DNA from: Candidatus Tepidiaquacellales bacterium OLB4/UTCHB1
Lineage (GTDB): Bacteria; Bacteroidota; Ignavibacteria; Tepidaquicellales; Tepidaquicellaceae
Assembly (NCBI GenBank): GCA_002050165.1
Contig: MWSW01000012.1
Span: forward strand, 62,001 to 126,000
Direction of reading: 5' to 3'
DNA length: 64,000 bases
The position numbers and the translations under genes are program-made. Positions 16,853-29,451 of this stretch are shown here, in pieces (position 1 is the stretch's first letter; each line of letters opens with the position of its first letter). Below the pieces are notes generated by a model. The model was not told the origin of the DNA. It searched no databases and saw only the letters and a program-made list of their open reading frames with translations.

Positions 16853-16899
16853 GTCTTGATTTGCTTTCAAAATGTTATTTGACGATTTTTGATTACAAT
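16853..16899 (+). repeat. Outlying degenerate CRISPR repeat
   Basis: A 47-nt sequence identical to the array repeat except at positions 3 and 4 (GTCT instead of GTTG), in the same orientation as the array but 3.5 kb to its left. No second repeat lies beside it. Sequence on both sides looks like pieces of unrelated coding DNA. Degenerate end repeats are common at the terminus of arrays, so this may be a true end of the array separated by insertions, or a join made through the repeat. Confidence 0.9.
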
Positions 16900-17043
16900 T
16901 TCCCGTCCTACGACTACAATTGCGATAATTCCCAGACCGGCGGTTGGGGGAACAACGAGGAAACTCCCGCATCGGTTACTGACGTATATATCGAGCTCTC
17001 GATGGGTGAAGATGGTTTTAATGATATGTCGCCTAATTGCTGA
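16900..17043 (+). other. Foreign coding scrap between outlying repeat and IS256 element
   Basis: Directly after the outlying repeat the plus strand stays open to a TGA at 17041-17043, encoding about 47 residues (FPSYDYNCDNSQTGGWGNNE, then EETPASVTDVYIELSMGEDG) of plausible protein composition and higher GC. The frame is joined to codons read from the CRISPR repeat, so it has no start of its own. I do not recognise it. It ends next to the broken 3' end of the transposase. Confidence 0.35.
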
Positions 17044-17044
17044 C

Positions 17045-18055
17045 TCATTTGTATTGAACCCGGTTTGGAAATGTCTCGGCTACTTCCTTATTTGTCTGGT
17101 AATAAACGTTTCTAATCTTTTCAAGCACTCTGCTTCTATGTTCATCAGGTAACTTGTTGGCTATGTTACGTAGCTTATGGGCTATACATCTTTGATGTTT
17201 CGTTGTGGTTAATACTTCCGATATTGCTTTTTTTAATCCTGTCGAACCGTCACTGATAATAAGCAGTGGTTCTCTTAATCCTCTGTCAAGCATGTGTCTG
17301 AAAAACTCTTTCCATGTCTGTGTGTTTTCTTTATTACCTAATGAGAGATGAAGCATTTGTTTGGTTCCGTCAGAAAGTATTGCCCAGGCACATAGTATAG
17401 CTTCCTTCCTGCTCTTTTGTTTTCGCATACTTTCATAAACTCCATCTACAAATAAATAAACCACGTCGAGATCACTGAGGTCTCGTGTTGAAAATTCTTC
17501 ATATTCCCTCTGGAGACTTTGATTGATCATGCTTACCGAACTCCTGCTTAAGATTGGTGATCCGGTTTGGTCAACCAATACTTTCTCAAGGTCTCGTGTC
17601 GAACATCCTCTCAAATACATCTGGGTTATCATCTTTTCAAACTCAGGACAAATTCGTTTGTTGTTTTGCATAAACACACTTCGGTATGGCTCATCGGTGT
17701 TGCGTAACTGGGGAACGTCTATCGGAATTTTGCCTACCTGAGTTTTGATTGTATAGTTCTCATATCCGTTACGGTATATCGGTTTAGCGGATTTTTCATA
17801 AGTCAAAGCTGAGTCATTGGAATCGTAATCGTCATGATCTTGACGATTCCCTTGTTTATTCTCAGGGCTTTCAATTCGTTGGTAATAATCCCTTCCTAAA
17901 TAACTTTTTACTTCCTCTTCAAGAATTAATTGAATTTCCTTTTTTAAGGTCTTTCTGATTAACTCCGAGATGATATTCTCAGAATTGTTACGACTCTCAA
18001 GCAAGAGTTGAATTAACTCATTGCTAATTTGTGTTGATGGTTTTAATTTACCCAT
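17045..18055 (-). pseudogene. IS256-family transposase, 3' truncated
   Basis: 336 residues of a mutator/IS256 DDE transposase; family members are usually about 400. The N-terminal region, VPQLRNTDEPYRS, the GCSTRDLEKVL motif and CIAHKLRNIANKL are typical. The first two catalytic aspartates are visible as Asp204 (FVDGVY) and Asp269 (ISDGSTG), but the protein stops (NRVQYK-stop) before the region holding the catalytic glutamate. The break is at the junction with unrelated DNA at about 17,045-17,060. It should be inactive. AT-rich, like the backbone, so it may be native to this lineage. Confidence 0.88.
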
Positions 18056-18379
18056 GCGGTGTTGTTCTTTCTTTTAATTTGTATTTACAAAAAGGGTTTA
18101 TACAAATTTAAGAAAAGCAGCACCGTTTTTTTATGCCGATTTTTTACACCGGCAATCTTTTTACAGGAAATTTAAGACTTCACCATCGGGGCGAAGCATA
18201 TTTGACTTCCGGTTCATGTGGTATGGCTGGAAGGACCCTAAATCTAAGTAGATTTATCACCCCTATTCACATACCAGCTCATAAAACTTTCTTTCAGGGT
18301 GGAATAATATAGACAGAATAGAATTAAAATAATTTTTATTAAATAAAAATAAAGCAGTAACTCAGAAAGGATATGCAAA
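18056..18379. other. Upstream end of the IS256 element and promoter region of the next gene
   Basis: No gene. 18115-18165 has short inverted GCCG/CGGC motifs around a TTTTTTACACC stretch, plausibly the left terminal region of the insertion sequence, but I cannot fix the inverted repeat without its partner. 18300-18380 is very AT-rich and ends in an AGAAAGGA Shine-Dalgarno ahead of the plus-strand gene. Confidence 0.35.
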
Positions 18380-19801
18380 ATGAAATCAATTATTTTGGCA
18401 ATATTTGCCATCATGGTTGTTACCTCAGCTGTAGAAAGCCAGGTATGGACAACCGAGATTAATATGCACCCATCCTATAATGTAAACGATTTCTTCTCCA
18501 TTGCAATTGGTAATGGCGGAAATCTTTTCATCACCGGGTATGAGGGCAATGCTTCGGTGAGTCACCTTATATCCACAAAGATAAGTCCTTCGGGACAAAT
18601 CCTGTGGTTGAAAGAAGACGCAGCACCGACCCGCATCACAAGCTTTTTCTCCCTTGCAACATTAAATGGGAAGGACAAGTTTGTTGAAAGATATAATGTG
18701 GGCACATCCCACTATCTCCGGTTTTGGTCTCAAAACGGAGATACCCTAAGCACCGTATCACTTCCCTCCCGGGTTATGCTGGGAAGTTATGGGGATAGCG
18801 TCATAGCTACCTCTATAGGAAACGGAAGCCAGGGATTTATCTTTGACGAGAATGGGGTGATGAAAACCTCATTCACCGCCATCCCTTCGGGTATGACGGT
18901 ATACTATGCGGATCCCAGAGTACTTGGAGATACCTTATGGCTCTTCGGAACGTGTTTTTCCGGAGGAAACAATAAAGGTTATATTTCCAAGGTAAATCTC
19001 CGCACCAAAGCCCAGCTTTGGACGGTGATTTTCACCCCGGTCGTTTCCCGAGCAATGGGAGACATCGATTTGAATGGTAATGCCTATATCGGCATGACCG
19101 CTCAGATAAACGGGATGTGGGTATTTAGAATGGTAAGGGTGAATTCGAACGGGGACACCACCTGGACCAAGGATTTGGCTCCGAATGGATCCACTGATGC
19201 AAATCAGGAAAACTTTGTGAATGGGCTGCGCGTCAGCACCGCTCATGACCGAGTAATCCTGGTGGGCTCATCAGAAAGAGATTTTCTTTCTAACACCCCC
19301 AACTCTGCGGGATATGTGCTCGCAAGAAGGTTAAATGGCGATTCAATACAAGCATTTAAAGTGGTCCATGATTCTACTGCAAAGTTGAATCCCATCCAAG
19401 CTCTCACCTTTGACTCTGCCGGAAACCTTTTCGTTCTTGGAAAAAGTTTTTTCCAAGTCGGAGCAACCTACGGATGGGTCAAGAGATATCCATTAAGTCT
19501 CCTAACTGGTGTTTCCGGTAATCAGAATAATATCCCCGAGGGATATGTTCTCTACCAGAACTACCCCAATCCGTTCAATCCGAAGACTAAGATTTCTTTC
19601 TCAATTCCGAAATCAGGATTTGTGCGCCTTACCGTGTACGACATTCTCGGAAGAGAAATTGAAACCTTGGTCGCAGAGAAGATGACCGCAGGAATGCATG
19701 AAGTTGGATTCGATGGCAAAAACCTTGCAAGCGGTGTGTACTTTTACAGATTGGATACTGATAATTTCACTGAAACGCGGAAAATGATGTTAGTTAAATA
19801 A
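18380..19801 (+). CDS. Secreted protein with type A C-terminal sorting domain
   Basis: 473 residues. Signal peptide 1-20 (ending AVESQ), then a repetitive beta-rich body with blade-like units (GNGGNLFITGY, DLNGNAYIGMT, DSAGNLFVLGK) that suggest a beta-propeller, and a final ~90-residue sorting domain (YQNYPNPFNPKTKISFSIP ... GVYFYRLDT ... RKMMLVK, given in parts). Same export route as the proteins at 10.1 and 47.7 kb, but GC-richer, so it may come from a related but different organism. A strong terminator follows. Confidence 0.82.
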   Translation: MKSIILAIFAIMVVTSAVESQVWTTEINMHPSYNVNDFFSIAIGNGGNLFITGYEGNASVSHLISTKISPSGQILWLKEDAAPTRITSFFSLATLNGKDKFVERYNVGTSHYLRFWSQNGDTLSTVSLPSRVMLGSYGDSVIATSIGNGSQGFIFDENGVMKTSFTAIPSGMTVYYADPRVLGDTLWLFGTCFSGGNNKGYISKVNLRTKAQLWTVIFTPVVSRAMGDIDLNGNAYIGMTAQINGMWVFRMVRVNSNGDTTWTKDLAPNGSTDANQENFVNGLRVSTAHDRVILVGSSERDFLSNTPNSAGYVLARRLNGDSIQAFKVVHDSTAKLNPIQALTFDSAGNLFVLGKSFFQVGATYGWVKRYPLSLLTGVSGNQNNIPEGYVLYQNYPNPFNPKTKISFSIPKSGFVRLTVYDILGREIETLVAEKMTAGMHEVGFDGKNLASGVYFYRLDTDNFTETRKMMLVK

Positions 19802-19821
19802 GTAAGATTTTATGAATACAT

Positions 19822-19856
19822 AAACCCCTCAATTTGAGGGGTTTTCGCTTTTTTTG
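19822..19856 (+). terminator. Rho-independent terminator
   Basis: AAACCCCTC-AATTT-GAGGGGTTT forms a perfect 9-bp stem with a 5-nt loop (19822-19844), followed by TCGCTTTTTTT. It ends the transcript of the sorted secreted protein. Confidence 0.9.
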
Positions 19857-19908
19857 ATTTATCCCCCCAGCGGGGGGATTGCGAATTTGCTATAATAATC
19901 GTAAAGCT

Positions 19909-20460
19909 ATGAAAAACAAAAAGGCCTTTTTGTTCGTTTCAGTCGGCGTACTCTCCTTGGCGGTTCTTTTCACCGCAGGCGAAGCGTTTGGTCAGCGGAG
20001 CAATTCTTGGACTCCTCCGACGCAGCAATTCCCCGGAGGCAATACCACTCCGCCGGTGGATGTCGGAGATATTGATCAATCGAAAAGTGCACGACTTACC
20101 ACCACAGGGTTTCTCACAACAGCACCAGGTGCGAGTCTCTCTACGGTTGATGGTGGTTATATAAGAGGTGGAAATAATGTATTCTACCCCTCCGCGAGCG
20201 GCGCTTCTCTTCTTCTGAATTTCACCTCCCCCTTCATCGTGAAAACGAAAGGCCTCGTGCTCCCGAATTATTCCACGACCGCGCTTGGGAACAGCGTGCC
20301 GCCGGGAACCATCACATACAACAGCGGACAGGCATGGCTCTTCACGGGTCCCTTGCCGCCTCCCGGAGGAGGAGGAAACCAGAATCAGGGCAACAACGGT
20401 TTGTTGAATGGCGCAAACGCGCAGGCGAATGTTGTGATTTGCTTTCAAAATGTTATTTGA
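19909..20460 (+). CDS. Patescibacteria-like surface protein, fused at its 3' end to CRISPR repeat 1
   Basis: The ATG at 19909 opens a protein with an N-terminal membrane/signal segment (MKNKKAFLFVSVGVLSLAVL), then GGNTTPPVDVGDIDQSKSA, which resembles the TPAPINVG..Q.K segment found in many Patescibacteria (CPR) secreted or pilin-like proteins. A low-complexity PPPGGGGNQNQGNN tail follows. The frame runs without a stop into repeat 1 at 20431 and ends after codons VVICFQNVI read from the repeat, so the native C-terminus is missing. A TATAAT box (19891-19896) sits 12 nt before the ATG with no clear Shine-Dalgarno, as in a near-leaderless mRNA. GC-rich compared with the backbone. Confidence 0.55.
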   Translation: MKNKKAFLFVSVGVLSLAVLFTAGEAFGQRSNSWTPPTQQFPGGNTTPPVDVGDIDQSKSARLTTTGFLTTAPGASLSTVDGGYIRGGNNVFYPSASGASLLLNFTSPFIVKTKGLVLPNYSTTALGNSVPPGTITYNSGQAWLFTGPLPPPGGGGNQNQGNNGLLNGANAQANVVICFQNVI

Positions 20461-20862
20461 CGATTTTTGATTACAATGAGCGGATTCTGGACACTCTTAT
20501 AGGGATAGTTGTGATTTGCTTTCAAAATGTTATTTGACGATTTTTGATTACAATATTTATAACGCTTTTAATTATGGGTTGTTCGTTGTGATTTGCTTTC
20601 AAAATGTTATTTGACGATTTTTGATTACAATAATTAGAGTTCGTGTCATCGTCTAATAATAGTTGTGATTTGCTTTCAAAATGTTATTTGACGATTTTTG
20701 ATTACAATATTATCCCAAATGGATATACCTGAAATAGGGTTGTGATTTGCTTTCAAAATGTTATTTGACGATTTTTGATTACAATCAATACCTGTCATAA
20801 TCAAAATGTATTAAGGTTGTGATTTGCTTTCAAAATGTTATTTGACGATTTTTGATTACAAT

Positions 20863-21451
20863 AGTAATGGGGGCATTAACACCAGAAGTGCAAGATTCCA
20901 CCATAGCGGGTATGTTTGTAGAATCAGGGAGCGATGGTCACAACGCAGATAAAGTAGAAGTGGAAGTGGATAATCCGGCACTGGCATTCAAGGCTCTTAC
21001 AGAAGCAGGGTTTGTGCAAGATGGATATACCCTTACAGGGGGAATGGTACATTTATTTGATTTTTCTAAAGGGGAAGATGCAGAATTTAAACAGAAATAT
21101 GTTAACTTTATAAACAAATTTAAACAATATGGCGGACAAATCAAATCAAAAGAAACATGGGCAATCAGGTCAGAATACATCGACTCTGAGCGAAGGGGAA
21201 AAATCTTGGAACGAATTGAGGGCACAAGGTTACAGCACGGGCAGGGAAGGTCAAGCCTTCATAATGCCATTAGGGATGCCAAAGCCAGAAACGAAGCCTA
21301 CCAAAAGTTCAGAGAAACGTTAGATTCTCCAGAGCGAAAACGGCTTACTGAACTATGGACTAAACAGATTGATGGTGCTATTTTATCTTTAGAGGAAAGA
21401 AGAGAGATTAGCAGGTTAGAAAAGGAATTAGCCAAACCTCTCGAATTATAG
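20863..21451 (+). pseudogene. Phage polyvalent-protein fragment, copy A
   Basis: About 196 codons open from the end of repeat 6 to a TAG created at the junction with copy B (21449-21451). The sequence (GSDGHNADKVEVEVDNPALA, then FDFSKG and INKFKQYGGQIKSKE) has the charged, loosely structured look of the large polyvalent proteins injected by phages and conjugative elements. The last residues (ISRLEKELAKPLEL) match copy B exactly. No proper start or end, so it should be non-functional here. Function of this segment is unknown. Confidence 0.6.
20903..21449 (+). repeat. 545-bp tandem duplication, copy A
   Basis: 20903-21449 and 21448-21994 are the same sequence offset by 545 bp with no net insertion or deletion. 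By eye there are about 35 substitutions, clustered in the middle; the last 150 bp or so are identical. Because 545 is not a multiple of three, the junction shifts the frame. Confidence 0.92.
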
Positions 21452-21994
21452 CGGGTATGTTTATAGAATCAGGGAGCGATGGCCACAACGCAGATAAAGT
21501 AGAAGTGGAAGTGGATAATCCGGCACTGGCATTCAAGTCTCTTACAGAAGCAGGGTTTGTGCAAGATGGATATACCCTTACAGGAAAAACAGTGCATTTA
21601 TTTGATTTTTCTAAAGGGGGAGATGTAGAATTTAAACAGAAATTAGTTAACTTTATAAACAAATTTAAACAATATGGCGGACAAATCAAATCAAAAGAAA
21701 GAAACGCAATCAGGTCAGAATACCTCACCGCTGAGCGAAGGGGAAAAATTTTGGAACGAATTGATGGCACAAGGTTACAACAACAGCAAAGTGGGTCAAG
21801 CCTTCATAATGCCATTAGGGAGGCTAAAGCCAGAAATGAAGCCTACCAAAAGTTCAAAGAAACGTTAGATTCTCCAGAGCGAAAACGGCTTACTGAACTA
21901 TGGACTAAACAGATTGATGGTGCTATTTTATCTTTAGAGGAAAGAAGAGAGATTAGCAGGTTAGAAAAGGAATTAGCCAAACCTCTCGAATTAT
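21448..21994 (+). repeat. 545-bp tandem duplication, copy B
   Basis: Second copy of the unit at 20903-21449. The join reads CGAATTAT/AGCGGG with only two or three bases of microhomology. Confidence 0.92.
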
Positions 21995-22470
21995 TTTTCA
22001 CTACTGACAAGGGGCGTTATGAACGTGCAAAGGTTGAAATAGAAGCCATAGCGAAGGATTTGGTTGGTATTGTTAAAAATGCTTTTGTTTCCCCATCAGG
22101 CATTAAGCGTTCTAAAAGAGCATCTATAAAGTCTGTAAGATGGTACGAATCGCAAGTGAATAAATTAGGCGATGGTGCAAGGGTGAACATCATTGTGGAC
22201 AACAATAAGGATGCTGATTTTCTGTATAGTGAAATAAAAAGGAGGTTTTCAACCACATTAGACCGTTCAGAGTTTTTTCCTGAAGGTACAGAACTTGGTT
22301 ATCCAAAGAGACTTATTGAGATAAGAACGCCAAGCGGGAAGATAGCTGAAATACAGGTAATGACTCCTGAAGGTTATCTTGCTAAGGATGGTGTTGTGGG
22401 TTTTCCAAAAGACAAGATATTTATAGCCAAAACCGAACTAGTTGTGATTTGCTTTCAAAATGTTATTTGA
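21457..22470 (+). pseudogene. Phage polyvalent-protein fragment, copy B, with RelA/SpoT-like domain
   Basis: Open from ATG 21457 through 22440 and on into repeat 7, where it ends after VVICFQNVI. The first ~180 residues parallel copy A. The rest (about 185-325) contains ARVNIIVDNNKDADFLYSEI, then GYPKRLIEIRTPSGKIAEIQ and VMTPEGYLAKDG, which resembles the nucleotidyltransferase fold of RelA/SpoT-type domains in phage polyvalent proteins (typical pattern GYRD.....LPNGHIAEIQ). The native C-terminus is missing. It shares no base-composition break with the backbone large enough to judge origin. Confidence 0.6.
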
Positions 22471-23942
22471 CGATTTTTGACTACAATTTTCCTCGTTGTA
22501 AACCCTAATGCCAAAGCGTTGTGATTTGCTTTCAAAATGTTATTTGACGATTTTTGATTACAATATACCTCATCCTTAAAATGAGCCTCTATAGGTTGTG
22601 ATTTGCTTTCAAAATGTTATTTGACGATTTTTGATTACAATAACGTAGATTTAGAGAAAAGATATGGGCAGGTTGTGATTTGCTTTCAAAATGTTATTTG
22701 ACGATTTTTGATTACAATGGTGGCTGTAGTAATTCTATTCAGCTTCGGGTTGTGATTTGCTTTCAAAATGTTATTTGACGATTTTTGATTACAATAATCC
22801 GAATTGAAAGTATATCTGTCAACGTGTTGTGATTTGCTTTCAAAATGTTATTTGACGATTTTTGATTACAATATTTTTTAAAACTTACCGGCATTACCCG
22901 CGTTGTGATTTGCTTTCAAAATGTTATTTGACGATTTTTGATTACAATACCCGGCAAGCAGGTCTTTACGATTTTTTCGTTGTGATTTGCTTTCAAAATG
23001 TTATTTGACGATTTTTGATTACAATCATATCAGTCAAGGGAACATTGAACTAATGTTGTGATTTGCTTTCAAAATGTTATTTGACGATTTTTGATTACAA
23101 TTGCTTTGTTAAATCGTACGACTTTGCAGCGTTGTGATTTGCTTTCAAAATGTTATTTGACGATTTTTGATTACAATGCTAATATGTCTTGTAACTGATA
23201 CCCTGATGTTGTGATTTGCTTTCAAAATGTTATTTGACGATTTTTGATTACAATCTGCGAGTTCTTTTATTTCGTTGTATGTTAGTTGTGATTTGCTTTC
23301 AAAATGTTATTTGACGATTTTTGATTACAATCGTACGACTTTGGGGAATGTTCAAGATTGAGTTGTGATTTGCTTTCAAAATGTTATTTGACGATTTTTG
23401 ATTACAATGGAATAGCGTTGCTTACGTTCGACAATATGTTGTGATTTGCTTTCAAAATGTTATTTGACGATTTTTGATTACAATTCATTCATAGACTCCG
23501 CCGTCCAATAAATAGTTGTGATTTGCTTTCAAAATGTTATTTGACGATTTTTGATTACAATTATGCCTTTTCTCTTAACTGCTCTTAGTATGTTGTGATT
23601 TGCTTTCAAAATGTTATTTGACGATTTTTGATTACAATATTAACTCGTCATATTTTATTGTCCTTATGTTGTGATTTGCTTTCAAAATGTTATTTGACGA
23701 TTTTTGATTACAATAAGCTATTGCACAGTTCCCAAGTCATTCATGTTGTGATTTGCTTTCAAAATGTTATTTGACGATTTTTGATTACAATTTAACTGGA
23801 GCTAATATTTGGCAAAGAACAGTTGTGATTTGCTTTCAAAATGTTATTTGACGATTTTTGATTACAATCTTAATCGTCTAAGTGTATTCAATAGAATAGT
23901 GTTACGTAATTTTTCCAAGGGAAAAAAATCGTCAATAAAATA

Positions 23943-23990: not shown

Positions 23991-25293
<1,303 letters not shown>

Positions 25294-25297
<4 letters not shown>

Positions 25298-28200
25298 AAT
25301 TCAATCTCCCCTAAATTGTTTACTTTTACTTTTCGAGGATTTAATTTGTCAAATGCACCAATACTCCTTACAGAATAAAATCGTTTTATTAACTTTGAAC
25401 TTTCAGTATAGTCATTAATATCGGATTCAATGTGATTTCTAAATACATAGTTAAAAGATGATATCTTCTGGACTCTGTACAAATATTCGCTTAAAAGTTT
25501 TTTGTTTCTATCTTTTATTGCTTGTTTAATTATATCGTCTTTTAAGCCAATTATAAACATTTCATTTTGTTGCATACTTTCAACGAAAACCCATCCGTCT
25601 TTTGGTAACTTTGCCAGAAATTTCTCGTCGTATTCAATTTCGTTTTTTGTGTCTGATATTTTCCTCCATACCTCTTTCGGATTTTTGATAATAACCGGTA
25701 ACCCGAATTTTTTTCTTTCAACAGCATGCCAAAACGTACAGATATGTTCTATTTTCTTATCTTTTTCATTCTCATTTATATAAAAAGCGACATGGTGATT
25801 ATTACCAGGTTTAACAAATCCAATCTCCCTATTGCTATCATCTCTCTTTACGGGTTCAACGCTTGATAAGCCTGTTAACATTCGGACTGATTTAATTGGT
25901 ATCTTTTTCTCCACGTTAAAGTACAATGGTTCTTTAAAAGCTTCTTTTGCATTTTTAAATTTCGATAACCTGTCTTCAACAATTTTCTTTACTTTATTGT
26001 CAACAATGTATTTTACATCTTGAGGCATAATAGACTCAAGCGGATATTTGATTACATATTCTTCTTTGTAACAGGTTGCATGTTCTAAAACGACATTTTT
26101 ATTTTCGTTGAGATAAATCGGATTTTTCTTCAAAGATGCAAGTGCTTTTTTCGAGTTACCATTATATTTGCTAATTCTTTCTTCAACCATTTTTCTTATA
26201 TATGTTTTAAATATCAAATGTGGTTTTGCAAAAATAAATTTAAGGTCTTTATTCTTTTCAATCACTTTTATTTTACCATAAACACTTTCCTCGCTCAAAG
26301 GTCCGCGTGGTACAATGATATTACTTTGCACGACAATCTTTTTACCATCTTTTTTGATTTTCCGTACACCTAACGTTGCTACCTTTTTACCGGGTTTAAA
26401 TGAAACTAAAATTTTAGAAGCTTCCTCCTGCACATATTTTGTTTCAAATGGTTTTTGAGATAGCAGGTAATTTTCCAACAAGCTTAATTTAGAGTTAGTT
26501 ATGATAGAATTATTCTTTAAAGCACGAAACATTTCGTCCCTAGTGAGTTTTGAACTAAGCGTATTTATTCTTTGAACATATCCCATTTTGGTACAAGCTA
26601 TAGTAAGGGCATCAATTGCATGATGCCTGTAGTCGATTCGTTTTGTCCAACCGATAATTTTTTCTACTTTTCCTTTAGAGCCATCTCCCGCTTCCCACTC
26701 TATCATTTCAGTTAAACTATTTTTTTTAAACTTCGGTAACTGAATATTTAATAAGACATCATCCCAACCCCAGAGATATCTTAGCCTTGATGTTACACTC
26801 CCTGTTGTTGCGGTTACAGTTTTTGAAACTTCACTTAATAATTTCTTCGACTTTTTCGTTATATATTGAGTTTCTCTTAATTGTCTTTGGATAAAATCCT
26901 GTGGTATTTTATTTTCAGACATTAAAAATTTATTTCTCTTATTTATCCCAATAACTTTATTTTTGAAAAGGAATTCAATTCTCTCTATGTAATCATTCAA
27001 CGCTTTTTCACCTTTACTTTGCATGAAATCGAATGCAGTTCTATTGCCCTTTCTTGAATTGCAGTTCCTGTGTGTTAAAGTTTTATTGCTTTGAGAATCA
27101 TCGTACAATAATGATCTTGGGATGATATGTTCAATATCTACCTCATTACCATTTAATGCATCCGATAATCCAAAAAAATTACCACAATATATACATGTTG
27201 CATTAACTTTATTTGTACCTTCTACAATTTCATGGAACAATTTCCATTTAATTACATTATTTCTTGTAGCTCTAACCTTGTATTCTTCTTCAAGACGTTT
27301 CCGGATTTTTTCATTTTCATTTTCAGTCTTAATTAGAGCTTTAAGTGTTTCATCCCTCTCCTGGCGGTTTTGTTTCAATTCTCTTGCTAATTCAATATTT
27401 ATCTCAAATGAACCGTTATTTCTCTCTTCATTTGTAACAAAGCCATTTTTTTCATCAATTATTGCATTTACTAAATTGATCAATTGATTTAAAATTTTCT
27501 CAACTACTGGTTGCCTTAGAGAATTTTTGGGTAGGTTTTCAATTTTATCACTCAGTTTTCGCTCAGCATTTTCTTCTATTGTTAGTGATCCGGTTGGATT
27601 GTAACCGGCAAATTCACACGCATCGCTGTAACCATAGCCATCCATTAGATACGGGAGTATTTTTCTTATTGCCTTAACCGACTTATTCCCGAACGTAAAT
27701 CTCGAAAAGTCAATTTTGGCCAGTTTTGAAGCTGCCTCTTTACCAATGTTAAATTTATTTACTAAAGTATTTACACAGTCCTCATAATCCGGTATAGAAT
27801 AAATAACATGCCATAGCTTATGTAAATTCTGTTTTTCAATTACAGGTGATATCACTTTTTTTATTTGCTCATCTAATACTTCACCAGTCTTACGATCTTT
27901 TAAGAATGTAATTGTCTCAGGGAATTGTTCGATTATCAAATCGAATTTTAGAAGTTCATGATCAAATTCCAATCCCGATACAGTTTTAAGAATTTCAGAC
28001 TTTAAGATGTTGCCTTGAATTCCTCTCGTTAACATTTTATTCCCTAACCAGCCATCTTCTTTTTTTAATTCAAGGATTTTAAAAAGTTCTGTTTGAGTCA
28101 ATTTATTATTGTTGTCGAGATATTCAAATATCTCTCTCTTCTTATCAATCGGAATTGCATAAATCTCACCTTTTTTATTAATAAGTGTAATATTATTTAT

Positions 28201-29025
28201 AGTTTCCCAGATTTTACAAACCTGAAATAAAGGTGAGCTCTTATGAGCTACTCTGGGTCCGACAAAGAAAGTTTTACCATTTTCAGTCTGTCTAGTGATC
28301 TTCTCCATTTCACAAATACTAACCAATCCTTTTTGTGATTTTAATCTTCTTTGATAATAGATTATTTCATTCTTCAGTTTAGATTTAAATTCATCCGTGA
28401 TTATATCCGAATAATGTTTTTGCTGTTGGTTCATTATTTTATCAAACTCTTCCATATAAGCTTCTCTAGGAAATACTTGTTGCTTTACGCGGTAATAATG
28501 ATTGTCTTTCAATTCATTATAGAATTTCTGGCCAATTGTTAATCCTTCTTCTTTCAATTTTTCATAACGACTCTTTACTTCTGCTAAATACTCAGTATCT
28601 TCCATATCCAGTTTTGAGTCCGATCGGTTGCTTTTATATCCACGTTTTTGATTAAGATGAAATAATATTCGCCCCAACTCTTTTAATGATACTTTTTCTG
28701 TAACAGCTTTAGATCTTAATTCCCATAATTTAATCTGATTCAAATTTGTTAAATTTTTATCTAACATTTCTCGTTTCGCCAATTCATTTACTAAAGCTTG
28801 TCTCCTCAGCCGATATCTGTCGTAACATTTTCTTTGCGATCTTTTTTGCGTCCTTTTCTGATTCTTTGATATTTTGTTCCCTCTGGTAAATTCTTTATTA
28901 TCATCTGTGCTTAATGGAATAATTCTGCAACCCATACCAAGTATTTTTTTCGTATTTTTGTTTTCAGAAATCATAGCCCAACCAATCGAGGCTACTCCCA
29001 AATCAATTCCAAGAATTTTTTTCAT
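25294..29025 (-). CDS. cas9: Cas9 endonuclease, type II-C
   Basis: 1,243 residues, in the range of II-C Cas9. RuvC-I with Asp8 (GIDLGVASIGWAM), Arg-rich bridge helix (KRTQKRSQRKCYDRYRLRRQ, about 57-76), RuvC-II glutamate near 544 (INIELARE), an HNH domain with a CxxC zinc-like pair (CIYC) and the catalytic DIEHIIPRS near 631 and NCNSRKGN near 660, and RuvC-III HHAIDA near 800-804. All nuclease residues are intact, so it should be an active crRNA/tracrRNA-guided double-strand nuclease. The C-terminal ~350 residues form the wedge and PAM-interacting region; PAM cannot be predicted from the sequence. AT-rich like the backbone. Confidence 0.98.
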
Positions 29026-29060: not shown

Positions 29061-29078
29061 TATAACATTTTGATGCAA
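29051..29078 (-). promoter_or_regulatory. Possible cas9 promoter overlapping the tracrRNA promoter
   Basis: On the minus strand TTGCAT (29078-29073) and TATAAT (29056-29051) are 16 nt apart, about 19-25 nt upstream of the cas9 ATG at 29025. The -35 box is inside the tracrRNA anti-repeat and the -10 overlaps the tracrRNA -7 box. This sigma-70-like form may not be the main one used by this lineage. Confidence 0.45.
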
Positions 29079-29148
29079 ATCACAATAAGGATTATTCCGT
29101 TGTGAAAACATTTACTGCGGTTCCGAAAAGCGGAATCGCTTTTTTTTT
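29062..29148 (+). ncRNA. tracrRNA
   Basis: Anti-repeat 29062-29085 (ATAACATTTTGA, T, GCAAATCACAA) pairs with repeat positions 2-12 and 15-26; two repeat bases (13-14) face one anti-repeat base, giving the usual asymmetric bulge. The nexus TAAGGATTATTCCGTTG (29086-29102) closely follows the AAGGCTAGTCCGTT plan of known tracrRNAs. It ends in a terminator hairpin GCGGTTCCG/CGGAATCGC (29117-29125 with 29131-29139, one G-U pair) and nine T. It is transcribed divergently from cas9 and is needed for crRNA maturation and Cas9 loading. Confidence 0.95.
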
Positions 29149-29451
29149 AATTTATAATTTTTTAATCTTTCCTAAAATATAATTGTTTGTATAAATCCAC
29201 TTATTTAACACTAATATTTATCCGTCATCGGTTATTCTTTTCTCATTAAATCTGCTATAACAACCCTCAATTTTTCATCCGAAATATTTCGGTATTACAA
29301 AATAACAACTTTTTTGTGCAAAATGATATTTGATAAAACAATATATTTCGAACTTAACTACTCCCCTGTGAAAATTATCATTTGAAAATTCCCCCTGACA
29401 CAAACTTAAATGCTTTTTCAAAGTGTATTGATGAACTCCTGTTTTACTCTA
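29149..29451. other. Gene-free AT-rich stretch between tracrRNA and tRNA-Thr
   Basis: No coding region. It contains a perfect 14-bp palindrome CCGAAATATTTCGG (29279-29292), a possible protein-binding site, and otherwise only AT-rich sequence. Confidence 0.5.

Follow-up and report, generated by a model that had tools for sequence, protein, structure and literature searches.

How does a position in a CRISPR array that should hold a spacer of about 30 nt come to contain 1,578 bp of a phage gene? The question is raised by the array of Candidatus Tepidiaquacellales bacterium OLB4/UTCHB1 (assembly GCA_002050165.1), which lies in the window that we analysed, a stretch of 64,000 nucleotides of contig MWSW01000012.1 (positions 62,001 to 126,000). 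Coordinates below refer to this window unless another contig is named.

The type II-C locus and its array

Judging from its genes and repeats, the window appears to carry a complete type II-C locus, the tracrRNA of which is predicted. Cas9, a type II Cas1 and Cas2 are all present:

23991..24338, minus strand: Cas2 (PF09827, TIGR01573)
24323..25297, minus strand: Cas1, type II (PF01867; TIGR03639 cas1_NMENI, 7e-89)
25294..29025, minus strand: Cas9 (Csn1), 1,243 aa (TIGR01865, 3e-136; PF18541; PF13395)
about 29062..29150, plus strand: predicted tracrRNA, read from the sequence, with a terminator-like hairpin and a T run

The likely tracrRNA is found directly upstream of cas9 on the opposite strand, and its candidate anti-repeat at about 29062-29087 looks complementary to the repeat when read by eye. 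Neither Csn2 nor Cas4 is encoded in the locus, and the interval from the array to cas9 holds no other substantial ORF.

As expected of a type II-C locus (repeats of about 36-48 nt, spacers of about 30 nt), the array is regular. It consists of 25 repeats of 47 nt on the plus strand (20431-23868), with the sequence GTTGTGATTTGCTTTCAAAATGTTATTTGACGATTTTTGATTACAAT. All but one of them are exact, the exception being repeat 7 (22441-22487), in which a single change converts GATTACAAT to GACTACAAT. In all, 26 matches to the repeat pattern were found in the window (the 25 of the array and a lone one), as against 0 expected in shuffled sequences, so these matches are not due to chance. Among the 24 gaps between array repeats, 23 measure 29-30 nt, and the remaining one, at 20863-22440, measures 1,578 bp.

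Such an organisation resembles the type II-C systems of other Bacteroidota (the Flavobacterium, Riemerella and Bacteroides fragilis type), with which it shares the Cas9-Cas1-Cas2 set and, by prediction, a tracrRNA, repeats of 46-47 nt beginning with GTTGTGATTTGCTTTCA, spacers of 29-30 nt, an array adjoining cas2 and old, degenerate repeats at the 5' end. Unlike in those systems, one phage-derived interval of 1,578 bp here takes the place of a spacer.

The crRNA strand of the array was deduced from the repeat sequence together with the tracrRNA anti-repeat. In related arrays, it is the left (5') end of the crRNA strand that has degenerate repeats, and II-C arrays are reported to acquire spacers at the 3' end (PMC12638026; PMC8092290); from this we infer that the right end, adjoining cas2, is the acquisition end. 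Counted from the presumed old end, the insert thus lies between the sixth and seventh repeats. The only base change among the 25 array repeats (position 22480) sits in the repeat directly to the right of the insert; it probably arose after the later repeats had been added, since these do not carry it.

On the left side of the array, 3.53 kb away, there is a lone, slightly degenerate copy of the repeat (16853-16899). The intervening stretch (16900-20430) contains genes for an IS256-type transposase and a T9SS-sorted secreted protein, as well as an ORF (19879-20430) that continues without a break into the array's first repeat. With a lone repeat, intervening genes and an ORF reaching the array in this arrangement, 16900-20430 may be a second kilobase-scale interval at the old end.

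Structure and origin of the interval

The features of the interval and its borders are as follows:

20816..20862, plus strand: repeat 6, intact, with the repeat sequence; left border of the insert
20863..22440, plus strand: insert, in which two pieces of a single phage gene overlap; non-coding when taken together
20863..21447, plus strand: left piece (allele A), 585 bp, with a frame from 20864 to the TAG at 21449-21451
20863..20892, plus strand: first 30 nt, putative genuine spacer, encoding ..VMGALTPEV, colinear with the phage protein
20903..21447, plus strand: copy A of a 545-bp tandem overlap
21448..22440, plus strand: right piece (allele B), 993 bp, its frame open to the right edge
21448..21992, plus strand: copy B of the 545-bp tandem overlap
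22411..22440, plus strand: last 30 nt, putative genuine spacer
22441..22487, plus strand: repeat 7, the sole array repeat with a base change; right border of the insert

The initial annotation described 1,578 bp of a polyvalent-protein gene, with a single open frame reaching both edges, in a spacer slot of about 30 nt between two complete 47-nt repeats. Its coordinates proved exact, and both the size, far from the 29-30 nt of an ordinary spacer, and the phage origin are borne out. The gene, in turn, is not contiguous: the interval is made of two allele pieces overlapping by 545 bp, and there are two different frames instead of one, the first running from the left edge to the TAG at 21449-21451 and the second from about 21448 to the right edge. 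As 545 is not a multiple of three, the gene is broken. The insert therefore consists of two alleles of one gene placed side by side and contains no working gene.

Copies A and B are 93.6% identical (35 differences over 545 bp); the differences fall in patches, and the last 137 nt are the same in both. At the junction between the two pieces (21447/21448), the shared sequence amounts to only 2 nt (AT). The copies differ from one another with dN 0.064 and dS 0.083, while a comparison of copy B with the nearest outside homologue gives dN 0.11 and dS 0.54; from the latter values, the gene family seems to be under purifying selection. Divergence of A and B after insertion is rejected, for they differ by 6.4% while 24 of the 25 array repeats have stayed unchanged, so the two alleles must have differed before they were joined. 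Homology to the phage protein reaches to about 6 nt from repeat 6 and 3 nt from repeat 7. This leaves no room for the remnants of a split spacer, and we consequently discarded an insertion into the middle of a spacer. There are no Ns in or near the insert. On the whole, each piece seems to be tied to its own edge, as though a genuine spacer there continued into the surroundings of its protospacer.

Over 328 aa, the protein encoded by the insert shares 47% identity with part of a 3,073-aa protein found on the IMG/VR contigs 3300027741_002057 and 3300027749_000093, which are identical over the 10,990 bases compared. The gene for this protein adjoins those for a terminase large subunit and a tail-fibre protein. 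A profile built from the homologues matches the RelA/SpoT-type synthetase Tas1 (6ox6) with E 5.2e-8; accordingly, the right piece encodes a RelA/SpoT-like domain with its C-terminus cut short. A search of Pfam gave no significant match for this domain of the insert. RelA/SpoT domains are known in phage polyvalent proteins (PMC5512222), and the insert corresponds to the RelA/SpoT-like portion of such a giant protein, encoded by an uncultured tailed phage. Like the proteins described in that work, the source protein is giant and multidomain, with an alarmone-synthetase-like domain; unlike them, it is represented here by no more than a fragment that combines two alleles, has broken frames and lies in the array of a host.

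Several other sources were considered and rejected. The host genome contains neither a second copy of the insert nor any other part of the polyvalent gene, which argues against a prophage elsewhere in the genome. When the other ORFs of the locus labelled L002 were compared with the host by tblastn, only one of them (17950-18945) gave matches (22-29% identity). No plasmid or known phage could be named as the source among 72,556 plasmids and 50,697 phage records, and, apart from the window's own genome, nothing matching the insert turned up among 59 relatives and 395 genomes from the phylum.

A parallel fragment and the related arrays

Among 84,980 genomes, the sole close homologue of the insert comes from a Chitinophagales MAG (locus L005; 83% nucleotide and 80% amino acid identity). 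The MAG carries 1,341 bp of this phage gene in an intergenic position beside ordinary chromosomal genes (JAIXKI010000015.1, 9949-11389 with the flanks); the fragment contains one TAG, and its ends are different from those of our insert. It is flanked by hairpin-rich direct repeats of 50 nt, identical to each other at 49 of 50 nt, and a search for a 30-nt core of these repeats, with up to 3 mismatches allowed, gave no further copy in that genome. The flanks are not CRISPR repeats, the genome's own repeat being 47 nt long. Two Cas1 genes are encoded in the same genome. Through the isolate name UW1SPNA, we link this MAG ourselves to a study in which 2x250 PCR-free Illumina reads were assembled with SPAdes (PMC9202391). 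As this case suggests, host assemblies do contain dead fragments of genes from this phage group. The mechanism need not be the same as that behind the insert in the spacer slot, given flanks of 50 nt that are no CRISPR repeats and a CRISPR repeat of 47 nt in that genome.

The related II-C arrays, about 25 in number and with roughly 690 readable repeats, showed no internal kilobase-scale gap. The one kilobase-scale gap that they contain, of 2.5 kb (genome G059, locus L027), is situated at a degenerate old end and includes masked sequence. This old array end (L027, 3114-5768), from the same Chitinophagales genome as L005, has two repeats each with a hairpin of about 26 nt inside; they lie 2.5 kb apart, the partly masked stretch between them carrying a DUF559 gene. 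In the host genome itself, we recognised no general pattern of direct repeats of about 50 nt around inserts besides CRISPR and longer repeated regions.

How phage DNA could have come to occupy a spacer slot

Searches for the phage behind the array gave no protospacer. It had been proposed that the edges of the insert, if it is an assembly join, would identify a targeted phage; in IMG/VR, the edge 30-mers (20863-20892 and 22411-22440) had 0 exact matches, and so had the two leader-end spacers. A blastn search of the array against phages and plasmids, plus 148 relatives, did not reveal a protospacer either. The PAM of F. columnare is NNNNNTAAA (PMC8092290), and it is absent after the left 30-mer, where AGATTCCAC is found; this Cas9 may use another PAM. 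We also considered a crossover through homology between the repeat and phage sequence beyond the edges, and rejected it because the similarity was no better than that of 27% of random phage windows.

Borders that coincide exactly with repeats imply that either the spacer-integration machinery or homology at the spacers was involved. If arms of 585 and 993 bp were each anchored at an edge, at points 1,033 bp apart in the phage gene, their overlap would have to be 545 bp. Thus, an edge-anchored double junction into two phage molecules would yield a two-allele overlap naturally, while a single captured fragment would not, unless the duplication pre-existed in the phage. The initial annotation had offered a giant acquired or recombined segment or, alternatively, an assembler that walked into the phage; the two-allele overlap fits better with the spacer-anchored version of either reading than with a contiguous giant spacer.

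We tentatively favour, at slightly less than an even chance, a real block of non-functional phage DNA resident in the host, placed in one spacer slot by a repair or recombination event. In such a scenario, two neighbouring old spacers would have matched one polyvalent-protein gene of a phage at sites about 1 kb apart. The trigger could have been repair or recombination, for example after Cas9 had cut the phage at both protospacers. One phage molecule would have been joined to the array at the left spacer and a second one, from a slightly different strain, at the right spacer; both loose ends would then have been sealed through the 2-nt homology, with loss of whatever repeat or repeats had separated the spacers. 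The identity of the edge 30-mers as spacers, the existence of these junctions in cells and the order of events are what we infer. Of the insert, at most the right ~24 nt beside repeat 7 could still be used as a guide. Other II-C arrays have been reported with promoters carried by their repeats; if the repeats of this array likewise carry their own promoters, the newer spacers would stay usable.

What speaks for a real insert is that its borders lie at intact repeats, that an overlap of alleles on the same strand is expected when each piece is anchored at an edge, that there are no Ns in or near it and that the same phage gene is present as dead host DNA in L005, an independent case. Against it stand the failure of the searches to tie any spacer or edge 30-mer to a protospacer, the lack of such an internal insert in the related arrays and, concerning the support from L005, flanks that are not CRISPR repeats, so the mechanism may differ.

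A serious contender, which we rate only a little lower, is a join made during metagenome assembly. The true array would then have contained two adjacent 30-nt spacers matching an abundant phage; starting at each spacer, contigs or gap filling would have run into two co-existing strains of that phage, and the chimeric ends would have been concatenated. This would give the same layout as a real event with no rare cellular event needed. A mixture of strains also puts two alleles in tandem in assemblies, here with a 137-nt identical block, and the repeats of CRISPR arrays are known to give rise to chimeric contigs (PMC6617893). Moreover, the genome is a scaffolded draft of 19 contigs that contains N gaps at other places (of 80 and 91 N in contig C6), and related arrays are free of such inserts. 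However, at 30 nt, the stretch shared by array and phage would fall below the length that final k-mers usually have, and pruning would have had to be asymmetric at both edges. The 2-nt overlap of A and B, which carries no N, is too small for a k-mer overlap and would not be made by a k-mer assembler, so the join looks as if it had been made in a DNA molecule. Finally, in L005, which comes from the assembly of another study, this phage gene stands in host DNA with no matching spacer. That the first and last 30 nt of the insert were true spacers would be predicted both by an assembly join and by repair or recombination.

That Cas1-Cas2 integrated a single kilobase-scale piece of phage DNA as a giant spacer, with the repeat duplicated around it, seems improbable to us. 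The idea agrees with the exact repeat-fragment-repeat structure and with the intact type II Cas1 and Cas2 adjoining the array, and in L005 a fragment of the same gene lies between 50-nt direct duplications in a genome with two Cas1 genes. Ectopic acquisition within type II-A arrays is also known (PMC7999890), being likewise an unusual acquisition inside an array; but in what that source describes of it, the spacers are ordinary units and no kilobase-scale interval figures. Unless the broken duplication came with the phage, two overlapping tandem alleles would stay unexplained; the 50-nt duplication in L005 differs from the 47-nt repeat of that genome, and no spacer of this scale is seen in the roughly 25 related arrays.

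Insertion of a transposon, an IS or some different mobile element into a spacer is most improbable: IS elements such as ISC1359 of Sulfolobus (PMC3025118) are known to bring kilobase-scale foreign DNA into arrays, but our insert, bordered exactly by repeats, has no transposase, integrase, terminal inverted repeats (as the initial annotation had rightly noted of transposon ends) or split spacer, its ends are not fixed, being different from those of the L005 fragment, and the genome holds no other copy.

Returning to capture through repair or recombination, it is tempting to extend it to a general process, although we consider this extension rather unlikely. Phage DNA of kilobase size would be captured in bacterial chromosomes at CRISPR spacers (other short direct repeats in the case of L005) through recombination between the broken ends of a phage and the very spacer that had directed its cutting. 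In addition to 30-nt records, the array would then store entire pieces of the attackers' genes, possibly from two strains at a time. If the junctions are real, the array itself would be a recombination target for the phage DNA that it cuts and a route for viral gene pieces into host chromosomes, one that is easily missed because array searches usually limit spacer length. If the insert is an assembly join, the edge 30-mers would be true spacers that name the targeted phage, and the case would serve as a warning for spacer-host links drawn from metagenomes.

One more observation concerns another part of the genome. In contig C9 (6,373 bp), about 290 nt near the start recur 6,056 bp further on, near the end; owing to this recurrence, the contig may be a small circular element or have a duplicated gene end.
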